Source: Sphingomonadales bacterium (GTDB lineage: Bacteria > Pseudomonadota > Alphaproteobacteria > Sphingomonadales > Sphingomonadaceae). Taken from it: DNA of 64,000 bases. The notes beneath the pieces are model-generated. The model did not search any database and was not told where the DNA came from. It saw only the letters and a program-made list of their open reading frames with translations. A program made the position numbers and the translations under genes. Shown here one piece after another: positions 13,118 to 13,912 of the stretch. The DNA lies in contig JAJTFR010000002.1 of the NCBI GenBank assembly GCA_021298455.1, positions 1 through 64,000 of the forward strand, read 5' to 3'. Each line of letters opens with the position of its first letter. The first letter of the stretch is position 1.

Positions 13118-13912
13118 ATGGCCCGCAAGAAGATTGCGCTGATCGGCGCTGGTAATATCGGCGGCACGCTCGCTCACCTCGCAGCACAAAAGGAACTGGG
13201 CGATATCGTCCTGTTTGACGTCGTCGAAGGCGTACCGCAGGGCAAGGCGCTTGACCTGTCGCAATGCGGACCGATCGAAGGGTTCGACGCCAAAATCACC
13301 GGCTCGAACGATTATAAGGATATCGCTGGCGCAGATGTGATCATCGTCACCGCTGGCGTCGCACGCAAGCCCGGCATGAGCCGTGACGATTTGCTTGGTA
13401 TCAATTTGAAAGTGATGAAGGCCGTTGGCGAGGGCATCAAGAACAATGCACCCGACGCTTTTGTAATCTGCATCACCAACCCGCTCGATGCGATGGTCTG
13501 GGCATTGCGTGAATTCGCGGGCATACCCGTTCCCGACCTCATTAAAATGGGCAAATCGACGCAGGAGCGCATTGACGCGATCGTCAAGCGCACACGCGGC
13601 GGCGGCGGCGAAATCGTTGCTCTGCTCGGAACCGGCTCGGCCTATTACGCACCAGCGACCAGCGGTATTGCGATGGCAGAAGCGTATCTCTTCGACCAGA
13701 AACGCCTTCTGCCCTGCGCCGCCTATGTTGACGGCAAATATGGTCTCGACGGTCTCTATGTCGGCGTGCCCTGCATCATCGGCGCAGGCGGCATCGAGGA
13801 AATTGTCGAGATCGCCCTCGATGATGAAGCAAAGGGCAATCTGCAGATCAGTGTCGATGCAGTGAAGGAACTGCTCGTCGCCTGCAAAAACATCGATCCT
13901 TCGCTCGCCTGA
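13118..13912 (+). CDS. mdh: Malate dehydrogenase with an internal in-frame deletion
   Basis: 264 residues, against about 320 in the LDH-like MDH family. The N-terminal Rossmann motif G-A-G-N-I-G-G, the [12 protein letters not shown] loop and I-T-N-P-L-D-A-M are present. After A-L-R-E-F-A the sequence jumps straight to [11 protein letters not shown]. The segment that should lie between (NAD-domain end, the D-S-A-R-F Asp/Arg and the G-G-H-G-D-T-M-V-P catalytic His) is absent. The frame is kept and the C-terminus is intact. As written it cannot be a normal catalyst. Either a real 168-base deletion or an assembly collapse. First gene of the mdh-sucDAB-lpd block. Confidence 0.9.

Follow-up and report, generated by a model that had tools for sequence, protein, structure and literature searches.

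The mdh gene of the window

The window, that is the whole stretch of 64,000 nucleotides that was analysed, belongs to the draft genome of a Sphingomonadales bacterium (G000). It carries a gene of the MDH/LDH family (mdh) followed by a gene that we take to be sucD-like, a label drawn from the sequence-only reading and from recall rather than from a family search. Two further genomes served for comparison: a complete genome marked as the same species (G213; a single contig of 3.02 Mb, 100% complete) and a third genome (G032). The features at the locus are the following:

13118..13912, + strand: mdh, MDH/LDH family, 264 residues against 320, with an internal loss of 168 bases
13516..13517, + strand: junction within mdh, codons 134-189 of the 320-codon gene missing; blunt, at a codon boundary
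13949..14833, + strand: presumed sucD-like gene downstream of mdh, 294 amino acids, gap-free against G032

Translation of the mdh frame gave 264 residues with zero internal stops. Aligned to the 320-residue protein of G213 (P0002), it consists of residues 1-133 joined to residues 190-320, the missing residues 134-189 amounting to 56 residues or 168 bases. The sequence-only reading had described an in-frame ORF of 264 residues lacking its catalytic segment, and had put the missing part at about 56 residues; translation and alignment bear out the former, and the latter is exact. D149, R152 and H176 (P0002 numbering) have catalytic roles in the LDH/MDH family. All three fall inside the missing segment, and the window protein is left without the active-site Asp, Arg and His. 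This loss had been correctly foreseen, but the motif quoted with it (D-S-A-R-F) reads D-S-G-R-F in this species.

Profile searches agree with this picture. The N-terminal NAD-binding domain is present (PF00056, residues 5-138, 132.8 bits), whereas the C-terminal alpha/beta domain is incomplete, the PF02866 match starting only at profile position 39, compared to position 3 in the G213 protein. Both flanks of the gap match the bacterial LDH-like NAD-dependent MDH defined by PRK06223, TIGR01763 and PDB 4ros. In the window protein, residues 134-189 and the three active-site positions within them are missing; it passes the PRK06223 subfamily cut-off (336 versus 283 bits) and falls below the TIGR01763 equivalog cut-off (317.3 versus 351.85 bits). 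The full-length G213 protein lies above both NCBIfam cut-offs (460.7 bits for PRK06223 and 435.9 bits for TIGR01763) and matches 4ros across residues 1-320. As written in the record, the window protein should not be an active enzyme.

The junction itself was examined on the G213 sequence. It had been proposed that TCGCGGGC is common to both ends of the deletion. This is not so in G213, where the left end of the gap runs into a serine codon and a different base precedes the right end. There is thus no repeat at the two gap ends, the join is blunt, and a deletion between shared repeats was rejected as the mechanism. The site of the junction alanine of the window is a serine in the other 112 sequences aligned. 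Because the missing bases of the draft strain are known only via G213, and bluntness is judged on G213 bases, a one- or two-base overlap in the draft strain itself is possible.

mdh in the same species and in other relatives

The G213 genome aligned to the window in four blocks of 97.8-98.6% identity, and its mdh is intact, with 320 residues. Outside the gap, 5 of 795 mdh bases differ between the draft and G213. All five are synonymous third-position changes, so the other 264 residues are identical and, regardless of how the gap arose, mdh stayed under normal selection up to the very recent past.

A match to mdh was found in 60 of the 61 genomes searched, the window's own genome included. Both MDH halves were covered at full spacing in 56 relatives (matched span of 954-960 bases), and among the 80 loci listed of 485 confirmed relatives the matches were of 957 or 960 bases. 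When 114 loci were translated, 109 gave 320 residues and one gave 324, the G032 locus being represented twice among these 110 full-length translations; the remaining four were the window and three cut loci. The gap is therefore shared by none of the 56 fully covered relatives, by none of the 80 listed loci of the 485, nor by G213. Alignment with related mdh genes, which the sequence-only reading had advised, thus returned full spacing in 56 of 56 and no relative with 264 residues. That short MDHs form a genuine variant family with a different role, for instance in NAD binding or regulation, is unsupported by these data and highly improbable: the frame is kept and both flanking domains are recognised, but a second example is absent from all of these relatives, and the remaining 264 residues are those of the normal enzyme, with no sign of adaptation.

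Broken mdh genes do occur among drafts of the genus, at a contig end in G029 and G022 and with an N gap in G013, and G020 gave no mdh match in the 61-genome search. These four cases were set aside as evidence, being expected in fragmented drafts and lacking a control gene for comparison. In G029 (contig C167, L114 1-69), the mdh match ends at residue 89 and the contig's final 69 bases bear no relation to mdh; this contig end is likely chimeric.

Other malate-oxidising enzymes were also searched for. No match to mqo was found in G000 or G213, and none of the 61 genomes reached the mqo cut-off, 11 of them giving weak matches (17.6-21.4 bits versus 549.95). Ldh_2 was likewise found in neither G000 nor G213. 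A second MDH/LDH-type gene was not found in G000, a search with the full-length protein did not recover the missing segment elsewhere in G000, and a search of G213 with the window protein returned one locus. Absence from G000 weighs little, since this draft is only 78% complete; absence from G213 weighs more. It had been argued that a strain relying on this gene would have no MDH unless a second mdh or an mqo exists. The search for such a gene, carried out on the full draft as had been recommended, found none; a strain lacking MDH is nevertheless unlikely, for the reasons given below.

One-sided losses in the draft

Three of the differences between the window and G213 break the alignment blocks: the 168-base gap in mdh, a 108-base gap and a 57-base extra piece. 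A 38-base gap lies inside the first block. Besides mdh, these features are:

6689..6692, within a - strand frame: 38-base loss against G213, out of frame; 505 codons stop-to-stop in G213, 403 in the window
26454..26456, within a - strand frame: 108-base loss against G213, in frame; 909 codons stop-to-stop in G213, 873 in the window
39972-40029: 57-base piece in the window, absent from G213; frames across it of at most 112 codons; the sole gain of such size

Polarisation with the third genome covers the three losses of the window only. Against G032, the protein splits into two frames at 6689 as well, and a 36-residue gap is again seen at 26454. Since G032 also lacks the three losses, it is the draft that has the odd state. 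The 38-base loss is probably of the same artefact class as the mdh gap. It breaks the 505-codon frame at window 6430-7926; the G213 protein of that frame gave no Pfam hit at E<=0.001. For the frame at 26022-28616, the G213 protein shows, close to its C-terminus, a weak carboxypeptidase-regulatory-like match that stays below the cut-off. Single-base losses against G213 were also seen at window positions 32211, 38483 and 59908, the longest frame at 38483 being of 220 codons in the window versus 323 in G213.

The draft comprises 2.35 Mb in 193 contigs and is 78.11% complete, a profile from which we infer a metagenome-assembled genome. The window and 40 further G000 stretches (496,618 bases) were compared with 1.277 Mb of the 3.02 Mb of G213. 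Of these 41 sequences, 14 aligned, over 190,309 bases in total; 27 gave no HSP of at least 400 bases because only this part of G213 was compared. Breaks and gaps of at least 19 bases were counted, a threshold chosen after the table was seen. A cluster of seven gaps in L227, each below 19 bases, was counted as a single 65-base loss. Other gaps below 19 bases, two HSPs of less than 400 bases (L134 end and L135 start) and the alignment break that coincides with the L136 N-run were excluded.

On this count, G000 showed 14 losses (38, 168, 108, 123, 58, 181, 66, 86, 47, 19, 163, 115, 103 and 65 bases) versus one gain of 57 bases. Natural strain differences should split about equally between both sides, and on this assumed 1:1 null the two-sided binomial value is 0.001. 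The frame was kept in 4 of the 14 losses, near the one-third expected by chance, and lost in the other 10. All 14 lie at least partly within G213 frames of at least 260 codons (longest frames, not gene calls), and many would therefore cut genes. Ambiguity at the join was of two bases or less in 11 losses, the others having 11 (L134), 5 (L216) and 3 (L227). Gaps of 1-18 bases had no such strong skew, the draft being shorter in 13 (the seven of L227 included) and longer in 10.

A natural origin is possible for five of these losses: two in L134, one of 58 bases with an 11-base repeat and one of 123 bases that precedes an apparent gene start; two in proline-rich sequence, of 66 (L140) and 65 bases (L227); and a noisy 19-base gap (L220). 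Without these five, the count is 9 versus 1 (binomial 0.02), with two of the nine in frame. The one-sided pattern fits what loss during assembly would leave.

Stripping of N-runs from scaffolds was considered as a single cause and rejected, since five of the 40 additional stretches still contain N-runs, which were thus not removed throughout; it may lie behind some joins. The two sides of the L136 N-run share 19 bases when placed on G213, and gap sizes in the G000 assembly are therefore unreliable. Elsewhere in the draft, the last 152 bases of L134 (contig C40, 4822-4973) align to G213 about 75 kb away from the remainder of the contig, which may reflect a mis-join or a rearrangement. At the end of the window's contig (C103, L141 8463-8948), 486 bases gave no alignment to the compared part of G213.

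Origin of the mdh gap

What was observed is that the segment is present in G213 and that the draft has many one-sided losses; that the assembly rather than the cell made the gap is our inference from the two. An intact gene in the same species, together with many similar one-sided losses in the same draft, favours loss during assembly from an ordinary 320-residue mdh, and very probably the organism has a normal, active MDH. Assembly or gap joining would have dropped pieces ranging from tens of bases to about 180, and joined the two sides without N. One such loss would have fallen inside mdh with a length that happened to be divisible by three, which is why the frame stayed open. Assembly collapse had already been named as a possible cause; the intact G213 gene and the one-sided losses support that part of the proposal, while the shared 8-base repeat that was to mediate it is not upheld. 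Two observations sit less easily with loss during assembly. The joins are mostly without overlap, unlike usual k-mer collapse, and the mdh gap preserves the frame exactly and falls on a codon boundary.

The second of these observations would be accounted for by a genuine in-frame deletion that arose recently in the sampled strain, or in some of its population, and that would leave MDH inactive and the TCA cycle open at malate or bypassed. In its favour, the sequence at the junction is clean and the rest of mdh is undamaged. We consider it unlikely, since the same-species genome is intact and similar one-sided losses abound in the draft, most of them out of frame. The failure to find another malate-oxidising enzyme in G000 or G213 makes a real deletion less likely still. 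Its biological counterpart, a natural sphingomonad strain that recently lost its sole MDH and runs an open TCA cycle through cross-feeding or a bypass, beside relatives that keep the enzyme, appears a shade more doubtful than the deletion itself.

Truncated genes are a general class of error in draft metagenome assemblies. G000 resembles other such cases in being a fragmented, incomplete genome with similar losses at many sites, and differs from the typical ones in that its joins carry no N and mostly no overlap. Read literally, the record would point to a bacterium that has no malate dehydrogenase. What the comparison suggests is that short coding segments are silently missing from many parts of G000, and truncated or missing genes in this draft should therefore be read as biology only once reads support them.
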